From Arctopsyche grandis (lineage: Eukaryota > Arthropoda > Insecta > Trichoptera > Hydropsychidae), in contig NC_135356.1 of the NCBI RefSeq assembly GCF_051622035.1, forward strand, positions 3,596,001 to 3,660,000: 64,000 nucleotides of DNA, written 5' to 3'. The position numbers and the translations under genes are program-made. Positions 9,001-41,283 of the stretch are shown here, one piece after another. How positions within the stretch are numbered: the stretch's first letter is position 1; every line of letters begins with the position of its first letter. The notes under the pieces are model-generated. The model did not search any database. It was given only the letters and a program-made list of their open reading frames with translations, and was not told the DNA's origin.

Positions 9001-9101
9001 CAGTGGCGTAACGTGAATTCCAGGCGCCCCCCCCCCCCCCCCCCCCATATACACATATTATTTTCTTTTCGGTAAAATAATTTTTCAAAATGCATACCTT
9101 T

Positions 9102-11695: not shown

Positions 11696-11812
11696 ATTAA
11701 AAAAATATATGTATCGCGAAAGATTTCTCAACTACAGGGATAACACAATGGTACACTTCACGTCACTTTACCCTGAGCAATGAGTTAGTTTTTATATACA
11801 ATGATCAAACAC

Positions 11813-17987: not shown

Positions 17988-18718
17988 CTTACATTATTGA
18001 GCCAAAGCATTGACGTCAATCAAATTGTGCAAGAAGATATAGCAGGCAAAAATAGATGAATCGGCAAAATCGACAAAAGAATATTTACAAAGGGAAAAAA
18101 TATTTAAATAAAAAGACCTTTTTTAATACCAAATTATATTTCGATTAAATCTTCAAGTTACAGAATAGACTTTGCATATTTTAGATTTCATACTAAATAA
18201 CAAATAAATAAACTCACTTGTATCACTTATATAACTATAATAACAAATTCATATTCAATAATAGAAATCACAATATTTTCTTAAACAATATTCAATTAAC
18301 AAATATCACATTGAATTTATCAGTCTTATATTATATACATATGTATTATAGGAACAACTAACAAATAGTTAACACATGCACATTCTATAGAATGTACATA
18401 TAATAAAGGGGTGTACATATATCGAACACCATATTTGGTTGAAATAGGTATGTATGTGTTCTATTAACAACTATCACATTGGATCAGTCTTATTAATTGA
18501 AGATACTAATTACTTATTTAACATTTATATACATATATAAAGAATAAATATATATAAAGGCACATGACTTTGTTTTGCCAATCACAATATTCAATAGCTA
18601 CGCTATATAAGACTATATTAATGTAAAATACTAAATATTACAATGAGATGTTACCCAAAAGAGGTATCCATCATCAAACACAAAAGTTAAGTAGACGTTT
18701 TACTCTTCTAGTATCAGT
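17988..18718 (-). repeat. 3' flank of the left microexon gene; outer arm of the inverted duplication
   Basis: Reverse-complement similarity to 37758-41283. It holds one copy of the ~550-bp unit (GGTAACATCTCATT, then TATATAGCGTAGCTATTGAATATTGTGATTGG) that is repeated six times behind the right-hand gene. Then comes the outermost part (TTACAGAATAGACTTTG, GTGCAAGAAGATATAGCAGGC). Similarity stops abruptly at about 17988, matching about 41283 on the right, which marks the outer breakpoints. Confidence 0.8.
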
Positions 18719-18799
18719 CTAATTATTTGAACATCTTTTAAATCGAGGACGTCGGTTTGAAGAATATTTCCTATACATTTTTGACTGCCGAATCGCTAA
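18719..18799 (-). pseudogene. Decayed terminal exon of the left microexon gene
   Basis: Aligns with the last exon of the right gene (37670-37757): both read L-A-(M/I)-R-Q-S-K-(I/M), then a basic Arg-rich tail to a stop (TAG at 18721-18719). Relative to the right copy, one G is missing at the splice acceptor, so splicing here would shift the frame. The preceding exon (18911-18964) already has a stop, so this exon is probably untranslated. Confidence 0.6.
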
Positions 18800-18910
18800 C
18801 TTGGGAATTGGAGAATTGTTGGCGAAATCCCTAAACAAATAAAAGTAATTATTAATACAACAGATGATCAGTAATAATATGTACATAAGTTATAAATAAC
18901 CGCGACTTAC

Positions 18911-21900
18911 ATTTCTTAAAGCGTTGATGATCCGATACTCATCAGCTCCACATCGCTGTCACAGCTGAAATTGAAATGATTGCGATTGTTAGCATAACGT
19001 AACCAACAAGAATTGAAAATACCACAGGAATAATATGTAAAGATATGCGATTTTACCTTTTCGATGAACTCGCGTCCGAGGAGATGGACCTGAAAGTAAG
19101 GTTATTGTAATTATGAATATTGTCAAACATTGATAAATAATCATAATTGTACTGTAATTATTTATTTATTTAAAAGTTTCGGACCATTGTGGCATAAAAA
19201 AATAATAATAATAATAGATAGAACAAAAAGCAAAAGGAAAAAATACAAAAAAGAAGAAAAAAAACATACAATTATATAATATTAGAAACAACTTACATTT
19301 TGGTAGGCGACACTGAGCTCCGGCTCCTCATCTCAACATCGCTGAGTCTGAAATTTCAAAAGCGAATGCGATTATTAATATATCCAAGAATTGATAGTAA
19401 TACAGAAACAATATATGTATATGTATGTGACTTACTCGTTTGACGAAGATCCCGCCTCGGAGATGGACCTGAAAGAAAAGTGATTGTAATTATGAATATT
19501 GTAAATCATTGATAAATAATCATCCTTGTACTGTTCTGTACATTGAAACAACTTACATTTTTGTTGGCGATGCCGAGCGAACGCTCATCATTTCCACATC
19601 ACTTTCTGAGCTGAAATTGAAATTATTGCAATTAATAACATATCCAAGAATTGATAATAATACCGAAACAATATATACATAAATATATTTACTATAAATA
19701 TAGTCATAAGCCTATATAGGGTATAGATCAGCGGTTTCCAAACTGGGAGGCACCAAAACTTTTTAATAAAAAAATAATTTTCATACCATAATCTATAAAC
19801 TCCAAATAAATAAAACTTCATATCGTAGCTTAACAGTAAAAATTCAATGCATGAATGTTTATTTTTATTTTTCTTTCATTTTTATATATACATTTAATTA
19901 CTATAAAAAATTATCCGGAGAAGAAGTAAAAATCTTTTTATTGACCACTTGGATGGTTTAGTGCTGCATTTTTCCAATTATTTCAAAGACCTTGATTTCC
20001 CAAAGTTGTTGTGGATCCAGAATCAATTAATAACTACATTAAAGAAGAAGACGAATTCGAGCTGACAACCATCGAAAAAGAAAAATTGATAAAACTAAAC
20101 TTTGTGCCAATAAACAACAACATCCTTCGCATTTAATTTTGATGTGTTCTGAGATGTAGTTTAATTAGTAATTTAATATATAAATTTATGTTTATAGCCA
20201 AACATTTTTATTATTCTGTCATTAAAGGTTTATTATTTAAAACGTGTCTATATTATTATATCTATTGAAAAATAAAAGGTAGCATAAAGTTTGGAAACCG
20301 CTGGTATAGATAGAAGCATTATATAAAATATTATATAGAAACTGTCATCCATATAATAATAAAACATGGATAATATGTACATATATAAATAGATATGATT
20401 TACCATTTCGATGGGCCCGCGTCTGAGCAGATAGACCTGAAAGTAAAATGATTGTAATTATGAATATTGTCAATCGATGATAAATGATCATACTCATACT
20501 GTAATTATAGAGAATCAACTTACATTCTGGATACCGGGTTCCTCATCTTAACGTCGCGATTGGACCTGAAATTTAAAAGCGATTGCGATTATTTACATAT
20601 GCAGGAGTTTATAAGCAGCAAGTTTATGTGATTTACTATAAATAATCATACGTATAGTAAAATATAAGTTAAAACTTACGCTCTGTATAAAGTGCTCGGG
20701 GTTTGACTAACCTCGGAATCGCTATCCGAGCTGAAATTGAAATTATTGCGATTATTTACATATATCCAGGAAGTGATAATAATACAGAAACAATATATAA
20801 TATATAAATAAATGTGATTTACTATAAATAATCATACTTAAAACTTACGTTTCGTATAAAATAGTTGAGGCTTGACATAGGCCGGAATCGCGGTCATTAT
20901 CCGAGCTGAAATTGAAATTATTGTGATTAATAACATATCCAAGAATTGATAATAATACAGAAACAATATATAAATATATGTATGTGATGTAATATAAATA
21001 ATTATAGGTCTATATTGTATAAAGGGTTAAAACTTACTTTCCGCGTACCGTTGCGAGCGAGCTCCGTTCGGAATCGCTGTCTGATCTGAAATTGAAATTA
21101 TTGCGATTAATAATATATATTTAAGAATTGATAATAATACAGAAACAACATATAAATATATGTATGTGATTTAATATAAATAATTATAGGTATACATATA
21201 TGTAATATAAAGGGTTAAAACTTACGTTCCGCGCAGCGTAGCGATCGAGCCCTCTCCAGAATCGTTATCAGAGCTGAAATTGAAATTATTGTTATTAATA
21301 ACATATCCAAAGATTGATAATAATACAGAAACAATATATAACTTTATGTTTGTGATTTAATATAAATAAATAATTATAGGTATAATATATACAGGGTTAA
21401 AACTTACGTTCCGCGTACCGTAGCGAGCGAGCTCCGTTCGGAATCGCTGTCTGAGCTGAAATTGAAATTATTGCGATTAATAATATATATATATTTAAGA
21501 ATTGATAATAATACAGATATTATGTATATAAGCAGTCAACACTTACGTTTCGCATGGTGTAGTTGGTCGGCGATTTTCTTCATCATCGCTATCCGAGCCA
21601 AAATTGAAATTATTGTGATTAATAACATACATATACATATATTTTATTTTATTTTATTTTAAAAAATCAATACCACAGAGACTTGACAGGTTGCCCCAAA
21701 GCGTCAATGTGATTTTAATACAAATAATAAAAATCATAAAAATTACAAAAAAAACATCATAAAAAAAATAATAAAAATCATAAATAAAAAAAAACATAAG
21801 AAAATAATAAAAATCATAAATAAAAAAAAACATCATAAAAAAATAATAAAAATCAAGTAAAAAATATGTACACAAAATAAAAACAAAGAAATAAGATTGA

Positions 21901-24489
21901 AAAATTTATATCGTGCTATTTAGGATGTGTTCCACCAACTCAACATAACTGGCATCGAATAGGTCCAAGTAATGTGCCAGTAAGTTAAGGAGTCGAACAG
22001 CTCTCGAGAGGGGGGAGTTCATGAGCACGTTTGATTTAGCCCTAATTGGCAAAAATATATCATGTTTTCTTAAAACTCTACGATTTTCCGGGGCCCAGAA
22101 TTTTAGTTTCTCCAGGATAGTGGGATTGTGAATCTCTCCTCTAAGTAATTTTACGAAATGTTTCCCAAGAAATAAATCTCTTCTCTTTGCCAGGGAGTTG
22201 AAACCCAAAGATCCCAAGACAAAGGCACTAGGGAACAGATATGGATAAAATCCAAATGTCTTCAGATATAAAAATCTAAGGAATTTCCTTTGGACTCGTT
22301 CCAACATTAGAGAGTAACGAAGTTGATAGGGAGACCATATAATGGAGCCAAACTCGAGCACACTGCGAACTAATGTACAATATAAGAGACGAATGGCAGT
22401 GAGCCCTAGTTCGGACGAATTACGGATTACGAATCCAAGGATTTTTGTTGCCCTATCACAGATATTCTCAATGTGAATGTTGAAACTCCAACTATTTTCG
22501 AAGACTATTCCCAGATCAGATATAAATAATTCTCTCTGAAGAAGAGAATCATGAAATTTATACGGATATTTAATAGGAGAACGAGAACGAGAGTAAGAAA
22601 TGACCCGACACTTTAGGATATTGAAGGGAAGTTTATTAACATTAGCCCATTCATAAATAGAATTCAAATCCTCTTGCAAATAAAGAGCGTCAGGTAAATC
22701 AATTATTCTCTTATAGATTTTTAAGTCATCCGCATATAATAAAAATTTAGAATGGTGAATAGAAGATTGAATATCGTTGATAAATATTAGGAATAATAAA
22801 GGGCCAAGATTTGATCCTTGGGGAATCCCAGTAGTGGCAACATACTCATAAGAAAAGCAACTCCCAAACTTAACGAATTGACGTCGATCCTGTAAATAAG
22901 AAATAAAAAGACCAACAAGATTATAAGTAAATCCAATAATATATGTACAAGAATTGATAATAATACAGAAACAATATATAAATATATGTGGGATTTACTA
23001 TAAATAATCATAAGCATAAAAGCATTATACATACGTATGTACATATGTATATGTAATGTAATAGATTACATACACACATAATATCATTACAATCAATGTT
23101 GTCGAGTCGAGTCGTGAAAAATCTCACTCTGAATGTTAAAAATCGTTATATGAAGAAACATCCAACAATGAATTGTAATCGATATGTATTTCATATGGAA
23201 ACGTTTCGGTCGATTTCACAACATTGATTACAATAATAATATTATAGTTAAAAATACATAAAAAGCAAGCATTCCAGTTTTAGACGTTTCGTCAATATGC
23301 ATATTGTTCAATTTCAAGTCAGTGGGAAGAACAAGGGAAGCAACAAATCAATGGATGAAAGCAATGGATTCAGGATTCCTTGAAATTATACATATGTATG
23401 TATGTATGTATGTATATTGCATGTCAACACGTCGCTTGATGTAAGCGCACAAAATAATAAATAATCAATCAAAAAATAGTATACGTAAGCTATTTGTTAG
23501 CAGTTAGCACGACCATCTGAAGTCGCACAAGCAAGTCCGCAAAAGCTTTCGCTAAACACTACATACATACATACATGTACTTAGGTGCATGTAAATTATG
23601 AAAAGAATTTTCAGAAAGCATGTGCAAAATACAAAATTTAAATATATATACCTAGGATGCCAATGGAAGCCTCGATCGTATAAAACAGCACAAGAAATTG
23701 TATACGATCATTTCGACCGTACATATAATTACTTGTGAATTATTTTATAGAATCATAAATTCAATCAGCATTTTTATTTGAAGTTCATCTCGATCGATAT
23801 CTTGAATAAAAAAAAAAAAGTCAAATTTTGAAAAATCTAATATAAAATTGGAATTATTTTCGAAAAAAGTGTAGCTCTGTAGAGGCTGCTGCTGGTATTA
23901 AAAATTGGTAAATATATTTGAAACACCGAAAACAATCATGAAAATGGTCTGGATATTGCGTTTATCCGAAACATTGCGTCAGTCTGAAAAATCATCCTGC
24001 ACTTACATATGTACATATGAGAGTACAACTTCCATATAATACACTTTCGATATATGTACATATGTACATATGTAATGAAATGAAACACGTTTCAAACAGA
24101 TTTACACTTTTAAATATATCATTATAACTACATATGTAGAGGCCGGAATCTGAAGGGGCTGTTTATTGTTCAAAGATTGTAAATGCATTGTTAAAGGTTT
24201 GCCGAACCTTTTTTACAAAGCATTTACAACAATTGAACAATAGGCGGCCGGCACGTTTCCGGCCCCTAATTATAACACACATTTGTACGTAATATTAAAT
24301 AGTATTATTTTACCTATTAGAGACTCTCATACGTTTAGCCCTTTTATGATTAAACGTATAAGAGTCTGGCAATGACTCGTCATCCGTCGAGACTTCATGC
24401 TCCGTCAACATTTCTCGATCCGTTGGCGTTTCAGCATCGGAAGCCATTTCGGTATCTGACGACGGTTCGGAGTCGTATGGTGAATACAT
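18911..24489 (-). CDS. Left microexon gene, Ser/Asp/Glu-rich protein, unknown family; possibly decaying
   Basis: Minus-strand exons in transcript order: 24489(ATG)-24314, 21455-21408, 21273-21226, 21085-21038, 20905-20849, 20730-20680, 20565-20524, 20436-20404, 19610-19557, 19468-19436, 19347-19297, 19089-19057, 18964-18911. Each has an AG acceptor and a GT donor, and every junction splits a codon after base 2. Joined this way the frame stays open for 12 exons and meets TAA in the last. Motifs repeat: SDSDSE-type exons first, then S-(E/S)-SDVEMMS...SPTKM exons alternating with 33-base MSIS-type exons. The protein is highly acidic, Ser-rich (casein kinase 2-like sites) and without signal peptide or membrane segment. 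The first exon (SEPSSDTEMASDAETPTDRE) shows no similarity to the right gene's first exon, so the true 5' end is uncertain. The large first intron contains a LINE, another intron a hAT. Confidence 0.6.
19729..20303 (+). mobile_element. hAT-type deletion derivative, 575 bp, in an intron of the left microexon gene
   Basis: The ends read CAGCGGTTTCCAAACT and AGTTTGGAAACCGCTG (perfect inverted repeat), flanked by the 8-bp duplication GTATAGAT (19721-19728 and 20304-20311). Inside, about 19990-20135, a plus-strand tail reads FPKVVVDPESINNYIKEEDE then FELTTIEKEKLIKLNFVP to a stop, resembling the C-terminus of ZBED5-like hAT transposases. Perfect ends and duplication suggest a fairly young insertion. 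It sits between two intact microexons. Confidence 0.9.
21038..21455 (-). repeat. Tandem exon-plus-intron units inside the left microexon gene
   Basis: Exons at 21408, 21226, 21038, 20849 and 20680 (lower ends) are spaced 169-189 bases apart. Each intron repeats the same blocks (ATTGATAATAATACAGAAAC, then ATAAATAATTATAGGT, then GGGTTAAAACTTAC on the plus strand). The gene grew by tandem duplication of whole exon-intron modules. Confidence 0.85.
21547..21597 (-). pseudogene. Dead microexon of the left gene (acceptor lost)
   Basis: This 51-base exon has an open phase-2 frame (SDSDDEENRRPTTPCET) and an intact GTAAG donor, but its acceptor reads TTTTGG instead of TTTCAG. It should be skipped, which leaves the frame intact because the exon is a multiple of three. 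The LINE insertion begins a few dozen bases upstream. Confidence 0.75.
21641..22935 (-). mobile_element. 5'-truncated LINE with intact reverse-transcriptase C-terminal half
   Basis: The minus-strand frame is open from about 22930 to 21906, roughly 340 residues. It carries GLFISYLQDRRQF, the GIPQGSNLGPLLFLIFIND block, the catalytic YADD (about 22737-22726), LEFGSIIWSPYQ and VQRKFLRFLYLKT. The stop is followed by a T-rich 3' UTR and an (AAAAT)n tail at about 21641-21661. The layout fits the Jockey/CR1 group of non-LTR elements. It interrupts an intron repeat unit of the left microexon gene (unit resumes at about 22945). The unbroken frame suggests a recent insertion, but the 5' half was never copied. 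Confidence 0.88.
22936..24137. other. Intron interior of the left microexon gene
   Basis: The first ~100 bases are the rest of the intron unit split by the LINE. The remainder is AT-rich with CATATGTATGTA-type repeats (e.g. 23393-23414). I looked for further microexons with CTTAC...CTGAAA borders and found none. Confidence 0.5.
24138..24267. mobile_element. Short hairpin MITE
   Basis: Ends AGAGGCCGGAA and TTCCGGCCCCT are inverted repeats. The centre holds TGTAAATGCATTG, AAAGGTTTGCCGAACCTTT and CATTTACAACA, which fold into a hairpin. Related cores lie at 44328-44470 and 51846-51985, with a shorter one near 51735. Confidence 0.75.
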
Positions 24490-24515
24490 GTTATTTTCGA
24501 AAGATGTAACGAAAT

Positions 24516-26280
24516 CTGAAAAAAAGAAAAAACCGTGCTGATTAAAGTTGTAAACGATAAAATACATATGTATGTATGTAAATAAAATTCAATCACGAGG
24601 TACATTTTACATTTAAGTAAGAATCGTTTGCATAATTAATTACACAACACTGAGACAGTCTCGGGACAGTAGCGAATTGGCGAAGTGCCGCCGCCACTTA
24701 ACAAAAGCACAGCCTGGGCTTAGTTAGCTTGTGACTCCGTGACTCCACCCAATCGTGAGAAGCTAACTCCAGAAACAAGTCCCTGTCCCTGTCCCCAGCA
24801 GCATTGGCAAGTTAGAGAAATTCAAAAGAATTACTGCGGTGCAGAAGGTAAGAGAGAAACCATCATCAGCTGCAGACTGTACAGAAGTGCGGGGATGTAT
24901 GACGTACATATCATACAGCTCGGCACACTTTCTGACACTCGTGAGCAGCACTTGAATGACAACTCCAGTGGCCGCGACCCCGAGAGGGGGAAAGCCATGT
25001 GCCTCACAATGTTGTTAGAGAAATGAAAAGATTGGATCTGACTTTGATGGGGGCAATAGCGAAATGAGATGACCTATGTAGTTCTGGAGAATGTTGTGTG
25101 GATGTATATACTATTCATAAGTATGTATACTATTCGGGCAATGATGATGGTCGTCATAAAAAGTGGACGGAGTGGGTGAACGAGGAGGCTATGAGATGTG
25201 TCAAAAATTGGCTGTTAAACCTTTTTCATTGAATGTTATTGAAGTATGTACATACATATATGCACCTACTGCTCCAAACGCACCGGACCAAGGGGTCGAG
25301 CTCTTCTATGCTGATCGAATGATATTGAATCGAAGAAAAGCAAAGAAATGATGAAATCAGAAATCAGAGATCGAATCGATTCGATCGATAAAATTGACCA
25401 TCGCGCACCGGTAGCGAGTGGAGCCCAAGTCTATTTTTTTGGATTTTGAATGAAATTTTTCCTTGCAAGGAAGAATGTCATATTGTTTTGACAATACGGA
25501 TAGGTTGAAACGTAACAAAACTAAAATCATGGAAGATTGCTAGCAATTCACGAACGAGGATAGAGGAGCTTAATTAATATGACAATTTAAAAATACGATG
25601 GTGGTCCGTGAGAATTACTGAATGTTACTGAATATGCCGGTCCGCCAACTGAAAATGTTAGAGTAGCACTGGTATACACTGGTATGTAGACTGTTATCCG
25701 TCACTGTCACAAGAATACCTGTATGTATCTTGGAAGTGAGATCGAGGATAGAAGCCGCGGGAGTTAGAGGTTAAGGTTAGATTGCACCATTTATCCAAAC
25801 GTCAACCTTAACGTTAACCTCACTGGGATGAGAGTATTTCAGATTGAAAGATGCTAAAGCGATCGAAAGGAATCATGTGCGAATGACATTGAGGATTGCA
25901 CATTGTGACGGATACGGATACGTATACGTAGACGGTGTCTCGAGAAAAAGTGCTGTGATGACGGAAGGTCGAAGAAAATAAGAGCGAAGGAAAGCGGAAA
26001 GCGGAAAGCGGAAAGCCTCGAGCTCGAGCTTCAAGTACGAGCTGAAAGGCAACGGTAAACGGGAAACGGGAAACGTCAAAATGTCAAAATGTCAGACGAT
26101 TGAAGTACGCGTATGTAAAAAAATGACGTACGTAAAGGTATCATTTCCAATATACATATGTATTTGAATGAAAGAGTACGTACTCGATTGGTCGGCAACC
26201 GAAGGAGACGACACGGCGACGAGAGCAGCGCACGCACCGGCTGTCAGACCGCAACTGTCAAAACGTACTGCAGTAGGATT
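24516..26280. other. Gene-poor region upstream of the left microexon gene
   Basis: Mixed composition, richer in GC at 24660-25020 and 25740-26280. Contains short direct repeats (GGAAAGC x4 near 25985-26015; ACGGATACG near 25910; GGGAAAC x2 then TCAAAATG x2 near 26065-26090). Part of 25470-25560 recurs at 44225-44310. Possible 5' region of the minus-strand gene, but no promoter element is clear. Confidence 0.4.
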
Positions 26281-26412
26281 CACTGTAAGTTCGCCTAATG
26301 CAATTCACCTAATTCGAGTATACCTAAGCGAGTTGGTCGAATATCAACATACCGAACGACGACCATACCTAATGTCATACATACCTAACTGCAGTTTACC
26401 AAATACAAATTG
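26277..26412. repeat. Repeat terminus rich in ACCTAAT motifs
   Basis: GCCTAATGCAATTCACCTAA and many spaced ACCTAA/ACCGAA blocks alternate with GGTCGAAT. The inverse pattern occurs at 31480-31615 and a short related piece at 42386-42440. Arrays of degenerate motifs like this often mark transposon ends. Confidence 0.55.
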
Positions 26413-27740
26413 ATCGAATGAAGGTTGTTTTACGTTGACGGATAGATGGCACTTTTGCATTGATAATTTCAAGATTATTTAAAACAAAATAAAATATTAA
26501 GTTGTATTTTAAAATTTATATTTTATTAATAGATGAAGTCGATCACTGTTTTTAAAAAATGTGCGTGTTTGGCTGTGTATTTTAGTAATAATTCAAACAC
26601 CATTAAATATCTTTGAAACTGAAACACTGAAACTTTTTACTGCGTAATAAAATTTTAATCGTTGCGCTATAATTTTTTTTTTCATTTTCAAATCTGCCGG
26701 AAGTAGCATTATTTTTCTTTGAATTATTATATATCCTAGACCGTGTATCGAACTGAAATTTTATATCTATAACTTGTATTAACTTGTACGCTCGAACTTA
26801 CACTATTTTTTGGACTTATTAATTAAATGTCTACTCTTATCGAAAAAATATAGTCCTTCAATTAATATTACATAAATAATAAATAATCAATAAGTTTTAT
26901 AAACCGGAAACGAGCCTTTTATTACATACAAATCTCAAAAATGATGCGACTACTGCTGCCGATGCTGCTGATTTTTTCGAAACTATTGGATACTCACATT
27001 AAACTAATAGTTGATAGTGTCATGCCGACTCGAATTGCAAGTCAAGTGCCGTTTTATTAAGTGATAAGCAATACTGTGTTACATTCATTGAAAGCCTAGG
27101 TTCTATAAATCATATTCATTATGTAGATAGAAGAAACGGAATTCAGCGAAGAAATGTCATACGATGAACACTTACCATTTTACATATCGACTAATTCCGA
27201 TAAGTCATATTTTAAATCCATTGTCATATGAAATAATTATTATATATGGGATAGATGAAACATATTGTGACTAATCAGAATATATTACAACAGGTAAATA
27301 CACTTTTACTATACATATGTACTCTGTTAATATTTTTCTTATATAGATATATACTTTTTACCCGAACACTAGAAAAAGTCAAAGATTTGTGGAAACATTG
27401 TGTTTCATTTGATACTTACTCTAGAGAACAGCTGGCATTGTTATCATTAACAATCTTTGAGTTTTACTGAACAACATTTCAAATCTATTTTCAAACAAGA
27501 AATCGAACGGAATCAAACTAGAAAATATATATCACTCTTTATCTTCCGGCGACAATTCGTCTTAGATTGTAGAAGACAAGAGTCTCCACTTGCTGAAGTT
27601 AAAAATTATAAAGAAAAAGTAAATATATATTAATTATTTAAATAATGGGAATAAAAAGTACACAGTAAAATTTTTTAAATTCAAAGAAATAGTCTTTTGA
27701 AATTTTTTTAATACACAATAGTTATGACAAATATTAATAA
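26413..27740. other. AT-rich non-coding stretch
   Basis: No convincing coding exon, RNA gene or repeat end was seen. Short open frames here have no family features. Confidence 0.4.
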
Positions 27741-28085
27741 ACACGAAAACACAGTATTTAATGAATGGTCTGGTATACAAATATTTAAAATATAAAAAAA
27801 CTCATGGTGTGGTGATTTATTGGCAGTCTTTTCACTACACAATAACCATGAGCGGTGACACATCACTTGCAAAACTTGATTTTAAGTGGCAGTCATTACA
27901 TAACAATTCATTCCACAATAACAACAATTCAAAACAACATATCAATTCGGAAATCAACGAAAACACAGTATTTAATCATTGGTCTCGTATACAAATATTT
28001 AAAATATAAAAAAAACTCATGGGGTGGCGATTTATGCAATAGTATTAAAGCTAATCAGTCTTTTCACTACACAATAACCATGAAA
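27741..28085 (+). repeat. Imperfect tandem duplication, ~217-bp unit
   Basis: ACGAAAACACAGTATTTAAT, TACAAATATTTAAAATATAA, AACTCATGG and the closing CTTTTCACTACACAATAACC occur twice in the same order. The second copy has extra bases (about 28037-28052). Small open frames here are by-products of the repeat. Confidence 0.8.
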
Positions 28086-28209
28086 AGTTATAAACCCCTG
28101 ATATGATATACATATGTAGTGTTTGTGTCCTTTTGATGTTGTCGATTTTATATGCTAAAAAATCAATTCACTATATTAAAAAAAAAATATTATACTTTCT
28201 CGAGAATTT

Positions 28210-28740
28210 TCCACGATTTGTCCGATATATTTTTGTGCTGGCCACCCCAGACTGACTGACAGTCGCGCGCCAACGGCTTCGGCATAAACACGTAGTTTTT
28301 GTCGCCACCGAAATCACCAGCTCGGCCACTGGTGATGGGTTGTGACGATAGTTGGAGACCAGCGACCAGCGACCAGCGACCAGCTCCAGTATCGCCAGTA
28401 TAGCGGTGTGCGCCAGAGGAAGCAGTTGTCTGCAGAGGGTCTGTCTCAGTTGTCGTCCAGAAGGCAGCTACTCAACAACTCGTAGCCAGCTACGCGTGGC
28501 TAACCTCAAAAGGCACGCGTGCTTTCTGCTTTCTTTGTTTACTCCCCCCCTTTCCTCGGTTGCTCTGCTTGATCTCTGTATAACTTATACAAAATACAGT
28601 CGCAATACATAAACAGATTTACGCCCTGTTTTCATTGGTTTACAATTTCCTCCCTTTTTTCCACATCACGCATCCCACGCACACTACGAAGGAGAAAGGG
28701 ACAGCAGAGCAGCCGACATCTTAAATTAAAATATAGCAAC
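28210..28740. promoter_or_regulatory. GC-rich island, possible promoter
   Basis: Base composition is clearly richer in G and C than the flanks. It includes a four-fold GACCAGC tandem repeat (28357-28384). No ATG-initiated open frame of useful length starts here. It could be a promoter with a non-coding first exon, but the gene it would serve is not visible. Confidence 0.3.
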
Positions 28741-30370: not shown

Positions 30371-30585
30371 AATGTTAAATTTTATTTATCGCTGTGTGAA
30401 TGAGCTGATAAGCATTAAATTTTGTGCGAAACAATTAGACATGTCACAAGCTACAGTTATTGATTGAAATCATTATTTACTTAGGGTCTGTGTGGTGTCA
30501 CTAATAGAACAACCAAATACCATGATCGGTGGAGAAGAGATGGTCATTGAAATTAGCAAACGTCTTTTCGTTTATATACGTACCA
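30371..30585 (+). mobile_element. Relic of an ISXO2-like (Merlin) transposase
   Basis: The plus-strand reading gives KFCAKQLDMSQATVID, a stop, then LLRVCVVSLIEQPNTMIGG and EEMVIEISKRLF. This matches the order of the ISXO2-like transposase domain: a helix-turn-helix-like segment ending in TxxDW, then REVC, then IGGxGxxVEIDES. The expected catalytic Asp is not seen at its usual place (EISK instead of EIDE). The fragment is short, contains a stop, and no terminal repeats were found. Confidence 0.5.
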
Positions 30586-31476
30586 AATTTTTTGTAAAAA
30601 ACTTCTATAGCTTCACACAAGAGTATTTTTATTACATGACTTGATACAATAGTCAATTTTCTTTAACGTTAGTTGTTTTACATATTGATTATTCATATAT
30701 TGAAAAGAATATATGTGTTCTGTGTTGTCTGTAATAAGTTGACCATCTGTAATACCACTCATGAGTTTTTATTATATGAAAATGTTTATTATAAATTGGT
30801 TTATTTCTGTAACTTGATTAATAAATTATTTATTATTTATTGTATTGCTTGTTTCTTGTCTTGCTATTATTGTTTATATTTCATTGTGTTTTGCAATCTA
30901 CGTATAAATTACTAACTGATTTATATTTGTTATGTATTCATCATAATTTATATTTATTACGTATATTTAAAATTATTAATTATTTATTATGGAAATTGTA
31001 TCAATCGTAGAAATTGTACTAGTCTGTCTATTATACATGCGTTTTCTTCTCACCTTCTTTTAATATTGATGATTGGAAAGCCAATTTTAATATATGTACA
31101 ATAAAAAAAATCTGTATATCTTTTTTGATTCCTTTTTATTACTTTGTTTTATCATAAATTTTATTGTAAATATGTACAATGTTTGCTATATAATATAGTA
31201 TAGTATATATAGCAAAAGATAATACAAAGCTACAAAAGCAATTAATTTTTTCAATGTCCTTAATTTAGTTCACTCGCCATTAGGTGGGAAATCCTCTTTA
31301 AATCTTCTGTCGGGCGCAATATGGTGTATATAGAGTTTAAGGGCTATTTGCAAAGAAATGTTATAACATTTATCTGTCAATGTTACTACACCATCTATTG
31401 ATATCGCGTCGAAAAATTACTAAATAATAAAATTTACTACTATTGGTTTGAAACTCGGCTACTGCTGGTTTGAAAC
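30586..31476. other. AT-rich non-coding stretch
   Basis: Very AT-rich, no gene seen. Short phrases near 31250-31290 (CACTCGCCATTAGGTGGGAA) may be the start of the ACCTAAT-type repeat arm that follows. Confidence 0.4.
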
Positions 31477-31615
31477 TCGAAATTAGGTGAATGTGTCATT
31501 CGGTATAAAGATATTAGGTGAATTTACCATTAGGTCAATAGATTTTCGGTAAAAGCGTCATTAGTGGAATTGCATTAGGTGAATTGATTTAGGTGTATTG
31601 CATTCGACCAATTTA
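31477..31615. repeat. Inverted counterpart of the ACCTAAT-motif terminus
   Basis: ATTAGGTGAATT-type motifs recur five or more times, ending in GCATTCGACCAATTTACCTG. In reverse complement this reads like 26277-26412. The two could be the ends of one ~5.3 kb element or independent copies. Confidence 0.5.
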
Positions 31616-31876
31616 CCTGCTCCCCTGCAGTAGTAGTAGTGCTGCCGGCAACAAATTCCCCACTCACTCCCCCACCACTACCACTACCACTACCACTACC
31701 ACGCTGCCGGCGTTTCGAATACGCGCCTGTGATTGGTCCCCCATACTGTTTATATTTACATATATATTATTATGTCTCTTATTTATTGTACATGTATTTT
31801 TTTTTTTTTTTGTAAACAATGCGTAATATCTGGTGCAGTATCTCGTATACTTTTAAAATATGAATTTGCTAATGGG

Positions 31877-32011
31877 ATTTAGGCCAGGAGAATTGCCGGG
31901 CCGAGGAAAGAGAGGTAAATAATGATCGGACATGAATATCCATTGTCAATTTATCTGGACCTTCCGCACTAATGTCATTGTCAATCAATTCGTTAGTAAT
32001 GGGTAGAGACA
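31877..32011. repeat. Dispersed repeat, copy 2 (copy 1 at 8812-9000)
   Basis: Same order of blocks as copy 1 without the ~50-base insertion: GGCCAGGAGAATTGCCGGGC, GATCGGACATGAAT, ATATCCATTGTCAATTTATC, GTAATGGGTAGAGAC. It continues into ACGTATTTTGGGC, showing what may have lain beyond the point where the hAT at 9001 inserted. Confidence 0.75.
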
Positions 32012-32757
32012 CGTATTTTGGGCATGTATTTTTGTCAAATTTTGCATTTTTAACGTCTATTTAGCATCTATTTTTATGAACAGTTTAATTTCAAATAATA
32101 AACAGTTTCGATGAATTTTAATAAAATTTATATTCCATTTAAAGACAACACAACAATTAAAAAACTAATAATAAATTCATATTTTAAAAGTATTAACATT
32201 TAATTTTTTTTTTTTAAAGATATTATAGAAATGTAGAATAAAAAATATTTTCGTTTTAATCTTCCCAAGTAATTTTTTTTCGGAAGGAAGCAAACGTCTA
32301 TTTCGGATAAAAAGTGTGCTTCTACACTCAATTGCGTTTAAAATATTTGTATGAACAATACTGCACCAAATACTTTGTAGATAAACTCAATAAGATACTA
32401 CGCATTGTCAACAAAAAAACAACAATTCGGGTGTGACCAACCCATGACTTTATCTATGTATTTGAGGAATATAAGAGGGTAACAAAACAAAATTCGAAAT
32501 TGAACTAATAACTATCGTATGATATCGTGCGATACAAATTGAGGGCAAATGTATGGAAACTTGCACAAGACAAAATTTCACTTCCGGTTATCGGATTTTG
32601 TTCATTTTTTTTTTATTATTTAAAATCAGTATAATTATTATACACATTAAATATCAAGAGGATAAAAATAATTTAAAAGGTCAAAATAAAATAATGAAAT
32701 ATTGTTTAAAAAAAAATACTACTTCCGGTTTACGAATTCTGACCAAAACGTTAGCAA

Positions 32758-32946
32758 CTCTAAGTTCGTACATAAAGAATACAAATATAAATTTTCAGCT
32801 TAATACGTTCACGGGTGTGGACAGGATCCAGGCGACAACATTTTTGACCTTTCTAAGAGGATAAAATCCCACTTCCGGTTTATTGAATTTAGTGAGTTTT
32901 TTTTATTTTCATAACATTAATACAAGATCAATACTTGAATTTTTTT
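32758..32946 (+). repeat. ~187-bp direct repeat, copy 1
   Basis: From CTAAGTTCGTACATAAA through GGGTGTGGACAGGATCCAGG and ACTTCCGGTTTATTG to ATACTTGAATTTTTT. The same segment returns at 34501-34687 with only about two differences, 1.7 kb away in the same orientation. Confidence 0.85.
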
Positions 32947-33761
32947 CAATCAATATTTATAATAATATTTATAATAAGATCAATATTTTCGTCCATTTGT
33001 GTAGACAATTCATTTGTCAATCATAGAACTAATTTCAAAATATATTATTGTTTTGCCATCTCTATTCAACGCGCGTGATTTTTTTTACATTTACATTTTA
33101 ATTGTCTTTTACATGTCAAAATTAAATTTTGTATGCAACCCTTACGCATAATAGTTAGTTGTAAATGATGCAATATTAATGTGAAACATAAAGGAGGTAT
33201 GTAAAAATAATTTTAGCTGTAAATTTCTAATGTCTGCCTTTTTTACATACCTCCTTTTTTCTACAATACAATGTCCGATTCATACATTTGTTTTTTGCTA
33301 AACACTAAGTAAAATCTCTCCATCGTTAATCCGAATAGTCGTAATTCGAGACTTGACTGTAAAATAATACATTAAATTTATCTAAATTAATATTTGATAT
33401 TCTTGCCTTATAATTGTATAATGAAATATTAAGTTTAAAAAAAACTTTCATTATACATATAGCTTGCGAATGTACACTAGAAGACTTATTTGCAGAAGAA
33501 ATAAAATAATTGCATTTTAAACAAAATTTTGGAAAAAAATTATGTGAATTTGATTTAGAGACGCCGTAAAGGTCACATTCAATGTTAAAACTCGAAGTAC
33601 ACGTGACCGCTGGCTGGGAACTGTTTTATCAAAATAAAACGTGGCGTTCTACGTTTATTTATTTATATATTATCTTAGCTATAAAGCTAATTTTAAAAAT
33701 ACATCTTAATTACTTAACTCTAAATAACTCTAAAATTTATAATTATCTTATATGTACTGTC

Positions 33762-33794
33762 CCTCACAGAGGTCTTCGCACCTCTGTGAGGGTG
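33762..33794. other. Perfect 13-bp hairpin
   Basis: CCCTCACAGAGGT and ACCTCTGTGAGGG pair perfectly around the 6-base loop CTTCGC. GC-rich in an AT-rich setting. It could be structured RNA, a transposon internal hairpin or a terminator-like structure; the sequence does not decide. Confidence 0.7.
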
Positions 33795-33799
33795 TTAAA

Positions 33800-34360
33800 C
33801 TAATTCAATGACATACGCTTAAAAAGTAATTTTTTCAATTTAAATAAGTAAACATTGGATACGGTTTAGAACCCCTGACATTTAAACTAATTCATTGACA
33901 TCTGCAATACGCATAAAAACTTTTTTTTTTTCAATTTAAATAAGAAAAAATTGGATACGGTTGAGAACCCCTGTCATTTATACTAATTTAATAACGCCCG
34001 CGATGTGTACGATAAAAAGTAAATTATTCATTTGAAATAAAGTAAATTTTGGAGACGGTTGAGAAGCCCTGCCGTATAAACTAATGCAATGTAATCTGCA
34101 GTTCATACGCTCGGAAAGTTTTTTTTTTCAATTTAAATAAGAAAATATTGGATACGGTTGAGAGCCCCTGACATTTATACTAATTTAATAACGCCCGCGA
34201 TGTGTACGATGAAAAGTAGATTATTCATTTGAAATAAAGAAAATTTTGGAGACGGTTGAGAAGCCCTGCCATATAAACTAATGCAATGTAATCTGCAGTT
34301 CATACGCTCGGAAAGTTTTTTTTTTCAATTTAAATAAGAAAATATTGGATACGGTTGAAC
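33800..34360 (+). repeat. Tandem repeat array, composite ~180-bp period
   Basis: Alternating blocks TTGGATACGGTTGAGA(A/G)CCCC and TTTTGGAGACGGTTGAGAAG recur with TTCAATTTAAATAAG, TAATAACGCCCGCGATGTGT and ATGCAATGTAATCTGCAG. The last two full units (about 33950-34130 and 34130-34310) are nearly identical, so amplification is recent. Confidence 0.85.
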
Positions 34361-34500
34361 ATTTTGAACATTTTTGAACATTTTGTCGCTTGAACATTTT
34401 TTCCGTTTACATTTTGTCGCGGGTACATTTTGTCAGTGCACTAATTTTCGGGTACATTTTGTCGTTGAACATTTTGGACTTGCACCAATTGTCGTGTAAC
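34361..34500 (+). repeat. Array of ACATTTTGTCG motifs
   Basis: About eight degenerate copies of (G/T)(A/T)ACATTTTGTCG separated by a few bases. This subterminal motif array sits between the tandem array and the second copy of the 187-bp repeat. Such arrays often lie near transposon ends. Confidence 0.65.
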
Positions 34501-34687
34501 CCTAAGTTCGTACATAAATAATACAAATATAAATTTTCAGCTTAATACGTTCACGGGTGTGGACAGGATCCAGGCGACAACATTTTTGACCTTTCTAAGA
34601 GGATAAAATCCCACTTCCGGTTTATTGAATTTAGTGAGTTTTTTTATTTTCATAACATTAATACAAGATCAATACTTGAATTTTTTC
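34501..34687 (+). repeat. ~187-bp direct repeat, copy 2
   Basis: Second copy of the segment at 32758-32946. It continues into a TTTCCTTTCAGACAAATGACTCG block that recurs in reverse at 41665-41720. Confidence 0.85.
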
Positions 34688-34743
34688 CTTTCCTTTCAGA
34701 CAAATGACTCGCCAGTGGCTGCGAACGTCACTCGGCACGGGAC

Positions 34744-34799
34744 GCGATGCGATGCGATGCGATGCGATGCGATGCGATGCGATGCGATGCGATGCGATG
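34744..34799 (+). repeat. (GATGC)n microsatellite
   Basis: Eleven units of the 5-mer GCGAT/GATGC in perfect register. Strand slippage length polymorphism is expected. Confidence 0.95.
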
Positions 34800-34829
34800 G
34801 TGCAATATTTTGATTATTGCTGTCAATCT

Positions 34830-35492
34830 GATCAGTAATATTTACTGTAACTGTCGTCAACCGGATAAATAAGAATACATTTTTTCGATTGCATCTTCTA
34901 ATTGTAAATGTATTTCGATCGATACAATGCAATTACTAACATTTTCTACAATGAAAAATAAAATAAAATTTAATATTTTATTTAAATAATAAAAATATTT
35001 AATAATATTTAATTATTTTATTTTGAAATTATTTTTATCTTCTTGATATTTAATGTGTATAATAATTATACTGATTTTAAATAATAAAAAAAATTTGAAC
35101 AAAATCCGACAACCGGAAGTAGAACTTTTGTCTTGTGCAAGTATTTGCATATTATATTCGATACAATGCAATTACTAACATTTTCTACAATGAAAAATAA
35201 AATAATATTTAAAGTGTTGTCATCCGGATAACGATAATCGGATTTGTTTACGATTGTATTTTATAAATGAAATGCATTTAGTTCGAAAAAGTAAATTAGT
35301 GAAATTTAGTTCGATAAACGTTGCGTTGACAAGTAAAATAAAATTGAAGCGGTTAACTACATATTTTTTTCCGATAACATTTGTGTTTACTTCGAGAGGC
35401 GAGTTTTGCGAAAGTGACAGTCGGTGCGCGGGTTCGGTCGAGTCTGCACGTTTCGGTCGGCGCACTCTGAAAGATCAATTGAGCAACTGAAG
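34830..35492 (+). promoter_or_regulatory. 5' flank of the right microexon gene
   Basis: Contains repeat fragments (GTCAACCGGATAAATAA, CGATTGTATTTTATAAAT) also present at 42480-42720, and a CTTCCGGTT-family piece at 35000-35140. From 35390 the composition turns GC-rich up to the ATG, consistent with a promoter and short 5' UTR. No TATA box is apparent. Confidence 0.4.
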
Positions 35493-37757
35493 ATGGCCAA
35501 CCCCAACCCCAACCCCAACGGAGGCAGTGGCAGTGGCAGTGGCAGTGGCAGTGGCAGTGGAGATGCAAATGCAAATGGCAACAGCAACGTGTCAATTTGC
35601 GAATCGATGCGAACGGTCGGAGTCCGAGCTGGCCGCGTCGCCAGCTTCATCGACCGGCAAGCTGCAGCCTTCGGGTCCAGGATTCCACTTCTGACCTGGT
35701 TGGGTGACCGGATCCGACACCGGCCTCGAGGAGTCATCAAGACCAAGTCCAGGATCAACCCGACCTCGTTAGACGTCTCCAAGATCAGCGCCGCCAAAGT
35801 CAAGAAAATGTGGCAGTCGATTGCTGCCGAGCTGGAGCACATCTTGGATCCACGAGAGCCTCGCGAGTAAGTCATTCCCAACTGTGTACCAACCGATGTT
35901 TTTCTGTCTATTATTAATCGCGATCAATTTCAATTTCAATTTCAGCTCCGAGAGTCGGCTCGGTGTGGCAATGAGGAGTCGACGCTCCGCATCTCCGTCG
36001 AAAATGTAAGTTGTTTCAATGTACAAACAGTACGAGTCTAATTATTTATCAACGATCGATTTTCTTTCAGGTCCATCACCGAGCCAACAACACCGTTAAG
36101 AGAGTAAGTCACGTTCATTTATATATATTATTCCCGTATATCGCGAATCAATTCTTGGATATGTTAATAATTGCAAACGCTTATTAATTTCAGCTGGTCA
36201 TCCGATGTTGAGATGTTGAGCCCAGCCTCGGCATCGTCATCGAAAATGTAAGTTGTTTTTATGTACCTAACATACAGTATGAGTATGATATTTTTATCAA
36301 TGATTGACAATATTCATATTTCTTTCAGGTCCATCACCGAGGCAGCAACACCGTCAAAAGAGTAAGTCACATACAAATATTTATATATTGTTTCCGTAGT
36401 ATTATCAATTCTGGGATATGTTAATAATCGCAAACACTTATAAATTTCAGCTGGGCATTCGAAGTTGAGATGATGAGCCCACCTTCGGCAGGGCCATCGA
36501 AAATGTAAGTTGTTCTAATGTACCTACAGTACGAGTATGATTTTTTATCAATGATTGACTTTATCCATAATTATGTACAACCACCTTTCTTTCAGACCCA
36601 TCTCCGAGGCAGCAACATTGCCAAACGAGTAAGTCACATACATTTATATGTATTGTTTCTGTATTATTATATTATCGATTCTTGGATATGTCAATAATTT
36701 CAATCGCTTTTAAATTTCAGCTCGGATTGTGATTCGGAAACAAAAAGTGAAAGCTCGCTGACTTTATACGGAACGTAAGTTGTAACTGCTTATAATATAC
36801 GTATGATAATTTATAGTAAATCACATTATTAATTTCCGGATATGTAAATAATCGCACTAATTTAAATTTCAGCTCGGATAGCGATTCCGAAGTCAGTCAA
36901 AATTCGACCGTTATATACCGAACGTAAGTTTTAACTTACATTTACATATTGTTTCTGTTGTCAGTTCTTGGATTTGTTATGAATCGAATTATTTTCAATT
37001 TCAGCCTCAAAAGGGGTTGTGCAAACGAAGAACCCCTTTTCCGGGCCACGCTACCTGAAATGTAAGTTTTGCTGCTTACATTATTTATCGATGGTAGACA
37101 GTATTCATAATTACAATCACTTTAATTTCAGGTCCGTCAAAGAGTGTGCTAACTCGTTGAACGGGTAAATCACACATGTCTATTTATTTATACTTATACA
37201 TATATGTATAGTATCTGATTATCTACGATATGTTAATAATCGCAATCGCATTAAAATTTCAGCTCGGAGAGTGAATCCGAGGATAATGACTGGAAAGCGC
37301 CATCGGAAATGTAAGTAATAAGTGCATCGAACATGTATGTAATTTGTGAATGTTTCTCCATGTCTAACAATATTTATAATTACAATTACCATTCTTTCAG
37401 GTCCAATAGCGAGGCTGCATCCTCATCAACAGAGTAAGTCTCACCGATTAATATTATTCCTGTATTATTATCAATTCTTGGATATGTTTATAATGGCAAT
37501 CGCATTTAAATTTCAGCTCTGATAGCGACGTGGAGCCGGTTAGATCGGGATCACCGATGACTTCGGAAACGTAAGTCGTACTTGTACAATACATAAAATA
37601 TATTTATGTACACATTATTATTATTTGTTATCATCTGCTGTATTAATCATTACTATTGTACTATTGTAGGTTAGCGATGCGCCAGTCAAAAATATGTAAA
37701 AAAAGGCGATTGCCTCCGTCTCACCCGTATTCTCTTCGACCTCGGCCAAAATTCTGA
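35493..37757 (+). CDS. Right microexon gene: 15 exons, Ser/Asp-rich 352-residue protein of unknown family
   Basis: Exons: 35493-35866, 35946-36005, 36071-36103, 36194-36247, 36329-36361, 36451-36504, 36596-36628, 36721-36774, 36873-36923, 37005-37061, 37132-37164, 37263-37310, 37401-37433, 37517-37570, 37670-37757. Every intron is 65-99 bases with AG and GT ends, and all 14 split a codon after base 2. The joined frame is open to TGA. The ATG (AAGATGG context) opens MANPNPNPNG, then a GSGSGS run and a basic segment with TWLGDRIRHRP and KKMWQSIAAELEHILDP (possible helix, about residues 105-122). The microexons add alternating (D/M)-S-rich modules: 33-base MSITEPTTPLR-like and 48-60-base DSESDVEMLS...SKM-like or SDSDSE-like. 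The tail is basic (KKRRLPPSHP). No signal peptide or membrane span; a nuclear or cytosolic protein is an inference. I recognise no family. Confidence 0.85.
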
Positions 37758-40700
37758 ATCATCAACTGTGCATCGATAATTTTCTTAATGTCCTTAATAC
37801 TTAATTTTTGTTTATGATGTGGACCTCTTTAGGGTAACATCTCATTTAAATATTTAGTATTTTACACGAATGTAGCTTTATATAGCGTAGCTATTGAATA
37901 TTGTGATTGGCGAAACAAAGTTATGTGCCTTTATACATACAAATGTATTGTTAGTTAGTAAGTTCAATTAATAAGACTGATTCAATGTGATACTTATTAA
38001 TAGAATATGGTGTGTTCGATACACACCCTTTTATTGTACGGTTTTTAGAATGTGTATGCATTAGCTATTGGTCAGTTGTTCCGATAACATACATATAAGA
38101 CTGATAAATTCAATGTGATATTTGTTAATTGAATATTTTTTAAGAAAATATTGTGATTTTTATTATAGAATTTTTAATTTGTGGTGTAGGGTATTAATTA
38201 CAGTCATATAATACTACACTAGTGAGTTTATTTAATTGTTATTCAGTATGAAATCTAAAATATTTATTAAATATAAACATTTCAAATAGATGTTCCAAGA
38301 ACTACACTGATATTAGAGTACAATTTCCTTAATAATTTTTGTATTCGATGTAGACCTCTTTTGGGTAACATCTCGTTATAATATTTAGTATTTTACATAA
38401 ACGTAGCCTTATATAGCAAAGCTATTGAATATTGTAATTGGCAAAACAAAGTTATGTGCCTTTTTACATATGTATATACTATCAATAATTAGTAAGTTCA
38501 ATTAATAAGACTGATAAGTTCAATGTGATAGTTGTTAATAGAATATACCTGTTTCAACCAAATATGGTGTCTTCGACACGCGCCCTTTTATTGTACTTTT
38601 TTTATAATGAGCATGCATTAGCTATTGATCAGTTGTTCCGTTAACATATAAGACTGATTAATTCAATGTGATATTTTTAATTGAATATTTTTTAAGAAAA
38701 TATTGTGATTTTTATTATAGAATTTTTAATTTGTGGTGTAGGGTATTAATTACAGTCATATAATACTACACTAGTGAGTTTATTTAATTGTTATTCAGTA
38801 TGAAATCTAAAATATTTATTAAATATAAACATTTCAAATAGATGTTCCAAGAACTACACTGATATTAGAGTACAATTTCCTTAATAATTTTTGTATTCGA
38901 TGTAGACCTCTTTTGGGTAACATCTCGTTATAATATTTAGTATTTTACATAAACGTAGCCTTATATAGCAAAGCTATTGAATATTGTAATTGGCAAAACA
39001 AAGTTATGTGCCTTTTTACATATGTATATACTATCAATAATTAGTAAGTTCAATTAATAAGACTGATAAGTTCAATGTGATAGTTGTTAATAGAATATAC
39101 CTGTTTCAACCAAATATGGTGTCTTCGACACGCGCCCTTTTATTGTACTTTTTTTATAATGAGCATGCATTAGCTATTGATCAGTTGTTCCGTTAACATA
39201 TAAGACTGATTAATTCAATGTGATATTTTTAATTGAATATTTTTTAAGAAAATATTGTGATTTTTATTATAGAATTTTTAATTTGTGGTGTAGGGTATTA
39301 ATTACAGTCATATAATACTACACTAGTGAGTTTATTTAATTGTTATTTAGTTTGAAATCTAAAATATTTATTTAATATAAACATTTCAAATATATACGTT
39401 CAAAGAATTACACTGATATTAGAGTACAATTTCCTTAATAATTTTTTTATTTGATGTAGAGCTCTTTTGGGTAACATCTCGTTTTAATATTTAGTATTTT
39501 ACATGAACGTAGCCTTATATAGCAAAGCTATTGAATATTGTGATTGGCAAAACAAAGTTATGTGCCTTTCTACATATGTATATACTATTAATCATTAGTA
39601 AGTTCAATTAATAAGACTGATAAGTTCAATGTGATAGTTGTTAATAGAATATATCTATTTCAACCAAATATGGTGTCTTCGACACGCGCCCTTTTATTGT
39701 ACTTTTTTTAGAATGAGCTATTGATCAGTTGTTACGTTAATATATAAGACTGATTAATTCAATGTGATATTTTTAATTGAATTTTTTTTTAAGAAAATAT
39801 TGTGATTTTTATTATAGAATTTTTAATTTGTGGTGTAGGGTATTAATTACAGTCATATAATACTACACTAGTGAGTTTATTTAATTGTTATTTAGTTTGA
39901 AATCTAAAATATTTATTTAATATAAACATTTCAAATATATACGTTCAAAGAATTACACTGATATTAGAGTACAATTTCCTTAATAATTTTTTTATTTGAT
40001 GTAGAGCTCTTTTGGGTAACATCTCGTTATAATATTTAGTATTTTACATGAACGTAGCCTTATATATCAAAGCTATTGAATATTGTGATTGGCAAAACAA
40101 AGTTATGTGCCTTTCTACATATGTATATACTATCAATAATTAGTAAGTTCAATTAATAAGACTGATAAGTTCAATGTGATAGTTGTTAATAGAATATACC
40201 TATTTCAACCAAATATGGTGTCTTCGACACGCGCCCTTTTATTGTACTTTTTTAGAATGAGCATGCATTAGCTATTGATCAGTTGTTCCGTTAACATATA
40301 AGACTGATTAATTCAATGTGATATTTTTAATTGAATATTTTTTAAGAAAATATTGTGATTTTTATTATAGAGTTTTTAATTTGTGGTGTAGGGTATTAAT
40401 TACAGTCATATAATACTACACTAGTGAGTTTATTTAATTGTTATTTAGTATGAAATCTAAAATATTTATTAAATATAAACATTTCAAATATATACGTTCA
40501 AAGAATTACACTGATATTAGAGTATAATTTCCTTAATAATTTTTTTATTTGATGTAGACCTCTTTTGGGTAACATCTCGTTATAATATTTAGTATTTTAC
40601 ATGAACGTAGCCTTATATAGCAAAGCTATTGAATATTGTGATTGGCAAAACAAAGTTATGTGCCTTTTTACATATATACTATTAATAATTAGTAAGTTCA

Positions 40701-41083
40701 ATTAATAAGACTGATAAGTTCAATGTGATAGTTGTTAATAGAATATACCTATTTCAACCAAATTTGGTGTCTTCGACACGCGCCCTTTTATTGTACTTTT
40801 TTTTTTAGAATGAGCATGCATTAGCTATTGATCAGTTGTTCCGTTAACACATAAGACTGATTAATTCAATGTGATATTTTTAATTGAATATTTTTTAAGA
40901 AAATATTGTGATTTTTATTATAGAATTTTTAATTTGTGGTGTAGGGTATTAATTACAGTCATATAATACTACACTAGTGAGTTTATTTAATTGTTATTTA
41001 GTTTGAAATCTAAAATATTTATTTAATAAAAACATTTCAAATATATACGTTCAAAGAGTTACACTGATATTAGAGATTAATTC
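37758..41083 (+). repeat. Six tandem ~550-bp copies of the gene's 3' flank
   Basis: The block GATGTAGACCTCTTTTGGGT then AACATCTCGTT recurs near 37826, 38350, 38904, 39455, 40002 and 40556, i.e. every 547-555 bases. Each unit also has CTTATATAGCAAAGCTATTG, CAACCAAATATGGTGTCTTC and GGTGTAGGGTATTAATTACA. Units 2 and 3 are practically identical and unit 1, next to the stop codon, is the most diverged. The left gene has a single copy. No coding frame is apparent. Confidence 0.92.
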
Positions 41084-41283
41084 AATGTGATATTTTTAAT
41101 TGAATATTGTTTAAGAAAATATACAAAGTCTATTCTGTAACTTGAAGATTTAATCGAAATATAATTTGGTATTGAATAAGGTCTTTTTATTTTATTATTT
41201 TCTCCCATTGTCTATTTTTGCCTGCTTATATCTTCTTGCACAATTGGATTGACTTCAATTCTTTGGTCCAATAATGTAAGAAG
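41084..41283 (+). repeat. Outer end of the inverted duplication, right arm
   Basis: AAGTCTATTCTGTAACTTG, TTAATCGAAATATAATTTGG and GCTTATATCTTCTTGCAC match 17988-18180 in reverse complement. Similarity ends at AATGTAAGAAG. Confidence 0.8.

Follow-up and report, generated by a model that had tools for sequence, protein, structure and literature searches.

Two head-to-head predicted microexon genes

The window analyzed here, 64,000 nucleotides of the Arctopsyche grandis genome (Trichoptera; contig NC_135356.1, hereafter C2, positions 3596001-3660000), holds two predicted genes in head-to-head orientation whose internal exons are all very short. The predicted right gene (35493-37757, forward strand) has 15 exons, whose single joined frame runs from an ATG at 35493 to a stop codon ending at 37757 and comprises 352 codons, exactly as the initial annotation had it. 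Its large first exon makes up about one third of the coding region, while the 13 internal exons (60, 33, 54, 33, 54, 33, 54, 51, 57, 33, 48, 33, and 54 bases, in order) account for 597 of the 1059 coding bases (56%). All 13 have lengths that are multiples of three, and all 13 are in phase 2 at both ends. The 14 introns (65-99 bases) are likewise all in phase 2; unlike the exon lengths, which go in steps of three, intron lengths do not favor multiples of three. Donors read GTAAGT in 13 out of 14 introns and GTAAAT in the other, and acceptors read TCAG in 13 and GTAG in one. The internal exons fall into two types, A and B, which mostly alternate A-B in this gene: type A (42-60 bases) encodes mostly stretches rich in Ser, Asp, and Glu, and type B (33 bases) encodes ten residues, such as SITEAATPSK. 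A tandem duplication of exon plus intron is visible, with a period of 257 bases. Because exons of the right gene end in AT, GA, AC, or GG and start with C, G, or A, no combination of them gives a stop codon at a junction. Its parts are as follows.

35493..35866, forward: first coding exon (124 codons and 2 bases), encoding a Gly-Ser repeat followed by 91 residues in which three helices are predicted
35946..36005, forward: microexon 1, type A, 60 bases
36071..36103, forward: microexon 2, type B, 33 bases
36194..36247, forward: microexon 3, type A, 54 bases
36329..36361, forward: microexon 4, type B, 33 bases
36451..36504, forward: microexon 5, type A, 54 bases; acceptor deleted in the inverted copy
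36596..36628, forward: microexon 6, type B, 33 bases
36721..36774, forward: microexon 7, type A, 54 bases
36873..36923, forward: microexon 8, type A, 51 bases
37005..37061, forward: microexon 9, type A, 57 bases
37132..37164, forward: microexon 10, type B, 33 bases
37263..37310, forward: microexon 11, type A, 48 bases
37401..37433, forward: microexon 12, type B, 33 bases
37517..37570, forward: microexon 13, type A, 54 bases
37670..37757, forward: last coding exon, encoding a basic tail; homologous sequence in the left gene and in a copy at 2.12 Mb on C2
37787..41176, forward: tandem array in the 3' flank, with a unit of about 552 bases present about six times, against one unit at the left gene

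An in-frame GGCAGT repeat at 35523-35560 (6.3 copies) encodes the run of Gly and Ser in the right product and is possibly variable in length. Upstream of the gene lie a 190-base direct repeat (32756-32945 and 34498-34686, 98.4% identity) and, near 34745, an array of the pentanucleotide GATGC.

The predicted left gene runs from 24515 to 18911 on the reverse strand. It has 12 open internal microexons in phase 2, 33-57 bases long (42, 48, 48, 48, 57, 51, 42, 33, 54, 33, 51, and 33, in order), and one more that contains an in-frame stop, and one of its introns holds a reverse-transcriptase fragment (21909-22994, PF00078).

24314..24515, reverse: first coding exon seen, possible ATG at 24489; acidic, with a basic cluster at its end
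21547..21588, reverse: microexon 1, 42 bases; usual acceptor lost, alternative AG in frame
21408..21455, reverse: microexon 2, type A, 48 bases
21226..21273, reverse: microexon 3, type A, 48 bases
21038..21085, reverse: microexon 4, type A, 48 bases
20849..20905, reverse: microexon 5, type A, 57 bases
20680..20730, reverse: microexon 6, type A, 51 bases
20524..20565, reverse: microexon 7, 42 bases
20404..20436, reverse: microexon 8, type B, 33 bases
19557..19610, reverse: microexon 9, type A, 54 bases
19436..19468, reverse: microexon 10, type B, 33 bases
19297..19347, reverse: microexon 11, type A, 51 bases
19057..19089, reverse: microexon 12, type B, 33 bases
18911..18964, reverse: microexon 13, type A, 54 bases; in-frame stop codon
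18718..18830, reverse: last exon, relic or alternative, with homology to that of the right gene
18176..18739, reverse: 3' flank with a single unit that is homologous to the 552-base array of the right gene

The initial annotation had described about 12 internal exons of 33-60 bases in each gene, all in phase 2, and this agrees with the 13 out of 13 found in the right gene and the 12 out of 12 open exons found in the left. Sequence comparison also bears out the head-to-head layout and the 3' flanks that the two genes have in common. The description of the genes as a pair stands insofar as they are two paralogs, but if every exon is used, the left frame closes before the last exon that is homologous to that of the right gene, and a comparison of the two first coding exons found no similarity.

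The chains of microexons are not the product of chance. We counted chains of exons of 24-75 bases that have strict splice sites, are in phase 2 at both ends, and are open both inside and across their junctions. When introns were restricted to 50-130 bases, the longest in-phase chain was 13 in the right gene and 4 in the left, while the rest of the window gave 2 on the forward and 1 on the reverse strand, 1000 dinucleotide shuffles of each region gave a maximum of 2, and eight other loci of the genome, picked for reverse transcriptase, gave 0 or 1. The left chain is short under this setting because some left introns are long; with introns of 50-900 bases it reaches 12, compared with 4 (forward) and 2 (reverse) in the rest of the window and a maximum of 3, seen in two cases, among 1000 shuffles of the left region. 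A chance origin is therefore rejected (chains of 13 and 12 against shuffle maxima of 2 and 3), in line with the earlier statement that an open right frame of 352 codons over 15 exons is very unlikely by chance. However, the exons are duplicates of one another and hence not independent trials in these counts, so that constraint was assessed separately.

Predicted products and searches for relatives

The right product starts with a Gly-Ser-rich segment followed by the basic domain of the first exon, a repeat region of 201 residues (46 Ser, 35 Asp or Glu, and 17 Lys or Arg), and a tail of 27 residues with nine Lys or Arg and no Asp or Glu. The initial annotation had stated that a signal peptide is absent, and by inspection we likewise found no hydrophobic N-terminus or signal peptide in either predicted product; a limited search for a first exon further upstream, which covered the left gene alone, gave no convincing hydrophobic start (best ten-residue mean hydropathy 0.98).

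No family had been recognized for these genes, and our searches lead to the same view. Pfam gave no domain above cut-off in either product. A protein database search with the right first exon found no relative at an expectation value (E) <= 1 among 3262 candidates, all of them proteins of similar length, and one with the whole right product found none at E <= 10 among the 7985 candidates sharing most words. The database is rich in insects. Nevertheless, the absence of protein relatives is weaker evidence than it may appear, because both searches require shared five-residue words and because microexon genes are often mispredicted or overlooked by gene prediction. Among solved structures, five matches had E up to 1 (best 0.0037), all starting at residues 8-10, within the Gly-Ser run, and these were set aside as effects of composition. 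A single-sequence model of 91 residues of the first-exon domain contains three helices (48 residues), with a mean predicted local distance difference test score of 67.7. No description of this microexon family was found among the open-access papers listed under the terms searched.

Copies, constraint, and competing explanations

The genome assembly (475,669,232 bases, 189 contigs) was searched at the DNA level with bases 35418-37840 of the window, which returned 115 matching pieces on six contigs; 30 places were taken as loci (40 of the 52 candidates were scored). Beyond the single gene pair of the initial annotation, the genome holds a wider family that includes many decayed fragments. One locus, C2:3569673-3572091, is an inverted copy of the whole right gene, with no differences in the 374 bases of the first exon, 5 in 588 aligned bases of the microexons, none in 90 bases of the last exon and the bases following it, and 26 in 1183 bases of the introns, and 12 of the 15 exons are identical. 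Nearly all of the differences within the gene fall at 36119-36460, where one B exon resembles another B exon and a 25-base deletion takes the acceptor of microexon 5; in our reading, an exon unit was converted or unequally exchanged in this tract. The left gene also has an inverted copy, which was compared over the part from microexon 4 through the last exon and differs there at none of 569 exon bases and at 3 of 2726 other bases, with four gaps.

The gene pair as a whole is therefore repeated as a near-identical inverted copy (C2:3569673-3584095 against 18-38 kb of the window) around an assembly gap, either as a palindrome or as a misplaced haplotype. As the mirror center lies near a gap of 500 N at 5077-5576, the inverted copy may represent the second haplotype, put in the wrong place during assembly. 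The same gap is flanked by a 5.1-kb direct repeat (1-5066 and 9049-14113, 99.98% identity) with frames that look transposase-like by eye, which reflects either an overlap in the assembly or a duplication that happened very recently.

A further long member (L039), at 2.12 Mb on C2, contains numerous exons of both types, and its last exon resembles that of the right gene, an exon that is recognizable in the right gene, the left gene, and this copy. It also carries an insertion that by eye is retroelement-like, and two exons whose junction would create a stop. The other 25 aligned loci (the 30 loci minus two full-length right copies, two left copies, and the 2.12-Mb copy; matches without a locus are excluded) are fragments, 21 of them on contig C6. 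Only three (L014 and L017 on C6, and L020 on C9) have five exons all intact in frame and splice sites, and diversity among the 25 is higher in exons (0.103) than in introns (0.080) and highest at codon position 2. We take these fragments as drifting, and the C6 fragments, mostly broken and more diverse in exons than in introns, were rejected as functional genes. Which exon types were expanded differs among copies and paralogs. Within this genome, only the two mirror copies have the first-exon domain intact; a remnant lies at C2:533749 (E 5.9e-5), and there are two weak matches with stops. In L040, at 6756-7879, frames beside a C6 fragment look BTB/kelch-like by eye, and two pieces that were scanned gave no Pfam match at E <= 0.001; the segment around this fragment seems amplified along C6.

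Constraint was estimated from right and left exons matched in pairs, as the proportions of nonsynonymous (pN) and synonymous (pS) differences. Seven pairs, drawn from the 13 left microexons as those whose best right exon was unique, gave a pooled pN of 0.297 and pS of 0.484, and hence a pN/pS of 0.61 (95% bootstrap interval 0.43-0.90; at least 1 in 0.6% of 2000 resamples), or 0.57 once the last exon was added; pairs were aligned by protein, which biases the ratio slightly downward, while saturation of pS biases it the opposite way. Over the alignable 3' part of the 2.12-Mb copy, pN from the right gene is 0.161 and pS 0.273. That pN lies below pS in the seven exon pairs matched between the two genes suggests that the genes were translated.

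On this basis we favor, as a probable reading overall, a pair of paralogous genes that code for proteins and belong to an undescribed, fast-evolving family, with a product that is probably nuclear. We are confident that the part concerning a coding family is likely to be right; the nuclear location is a guess, to which we give somewhat less than an even chance. Several observations weigh against this reading. In the left gene, microexon 13 (18964-18911, 54 bases) contains an in-frame stop, and TTGG replaces the TCAG acceptor of microexon 1, where an AG nine bases inward would preserve the frame. The matched pairs leave out left microexons 1-5 and 11 (6 of 13), whose best right exon was already taken. 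Within families, the pooled pN/pS of 0.71 for A exons and 0.75 for B exons indicates weak constraint, and a young pair of A exons in the right gene (36194 and 36451) has a pN of 0.20 above a pS of 0.09. Divergence between the right gene and the 2.12-Mb copy is likewise greater in exons (26 of 141 bases) than in introns (20 of 169). The model of the first-exon domain gave 16 matches in the PDB with E up to 10 and none at E <= 0.001, and the motifs taken for a nuclear localization signal (NLS) and for phosphorylation were read by eye.

Part of this evidence would fit a pair that was formerly coding and has recently died, its members now being pseudogenes like their relatives on C6. The stop and lost acceptor of the left gene, the insertion and junction stop of the 2.12-Mb copy, and the state of the 25 fragments, mostly broken and more diverse in exons than in introns, would all be consistent with such an outcome. 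Nevertheless, the right gene retains each of its 15 exons and every splice site, with 352 codons open, and pN is below pS in the matched exons of the two genes. We consider the death of the pair unlikely.

It would also be tempting to infer a secreted effector family, as the small same-phase internal exons, rapid divergence, and growth in copy number invite comparison with bicycle genes, microexon genes (MEG), and KQY genes, the first two of which the layout had brought to mind in the initial annotation. Genes in which same-phase microexons predominate are known mainly from secreted effectors of parasites and aphids, whose rapid change is ascribed to conflict with the host, and an N-terminal signal peptide is typical of bicycle genes. 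Bicycle genes of aphids form a fast-diverging multigene family with many small internal exons nearly all in phase 2 (PMC9168663), and small phase-2 internal exons are what we find here (13 out of 13 in the right gene and 12 out of 12 open ones in the left). The structure classifier published there has a cut-off of 0.72; with its published coefficients, the left gene (start set at ATG 24489, end at the in-frame stop) scores 0.756 and passes, whereas the right gene scores 0.011 and does not. The present genes differ in that A and B exon types alternate and in that inspection of the predicted products reveals no signal peptide. For schistosome MEGs, PMC5825161 reports that about 80% of the coding region lies in symmetric exons of 6-36 bases, whose skipping can be frame-neutral, and that all MEGs found were predicted to carry a signal peptide. 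Here too, short symmetric exons form much of the coding region, but they measure 33-60 bases and make up 56% of it in the right gene, the first exon is large, and by inspection no signal peptide marks the products as secreted or membrane-anchored. The KQY/KHI cassette effectors of the pea aphid have coding regions built from miniature exons and form a family with isoforms; their signal-peptide region is conserved, and 33 out of 37 exons of KQY1a have <=15 bases (PMC7495047). By contrast, the shortest internal exon here has 33 bases, and no signal-peptide cassette is seen.

Our genes follow the building plan of bicycle, MEG, and KQY genes, but they differ from all three in that no signal peptide is seen and from MEG and KQY genes also in exon size, and the bicycle classifier gives a split result; the likeness is one of gene structure. 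An effector reading is further opposed by the basic, NLS-like ends of the product and by the failure of the protein searches to find a sequence relative. We reject it because no signal peptide is seen in either gene, nor a convincing hydrophobic start in the limited scan upstream of the left gene, and give it only a slim chance. Least probable of all, and not supported for the two genes, is a transposon-derived frame built from repeats: the matching fragments, spread over six contigs with a cluster on C6, and the tandem 3' array might hint at it, but Pfam finds no domain above cut-off in either product, the copies are not retrocopies because they contain introns, and to our knowledge chains of 13 in-phase microexons are not known from transposons.

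A cassette model and neighboring sequence

Returning to the reading of an undescribed coding family, we speculate that the two interleaved types of phase-2 microexon make up a set of interchangeable cassettes. The protein that they build would be intracellular and probably nuclear, and the family would form a non-secreted counterpart to MEG and bicycle genes, with a repeat content that changes through duplication and conversion of exon units and possibly through combinatorial splicing. This model is tentative, and we regard it as possible rather than probable. Because the internal exons are in phase 2 at both ends and no right-gene junction creates a stop, exon units could be added, lost, converted, or skipped with the frame kept. 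The gene would then yield a variable repeat region, rich in Ser and acidic residues and probably disordered and phosphorylated, between the N-terminal domain and a basic, NLS-like tail. Acidic Ser repeats with basic ends recall nuclear phosphoproteins, and the product would most likely act inside the cell, probably in the nucleus, where repeat number, and perhaps splice choice, might tune its charge or binding.

If true, a family that has this build but lacks a signal peptide would offer a test of whether architecture, rather than secretion, drives rapid modular evolution. Moreover, near-identical copies that differ by apparent conversion of an exon unit may show the process under way. Since gene prediction easily misses genes of this kind, protein databases may conceal more of them.

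Elsewhere in the window, an ALYREF-type frame at 14783-15520 forms one uninterrupted exon with RRM and FoP domains and is possibly a retrocopy. It had 1519 database matches among 7982 scored candidates. The named matches with the highest scores, at about 55% identity, come from moths, bees, and other insects, and in the best 120 of these 1519 the named ones are mostly from moths, wasps, bees, ants, beetles, and flies, with identities of about 45-64%, so that the window is insect-like but close to none of them.

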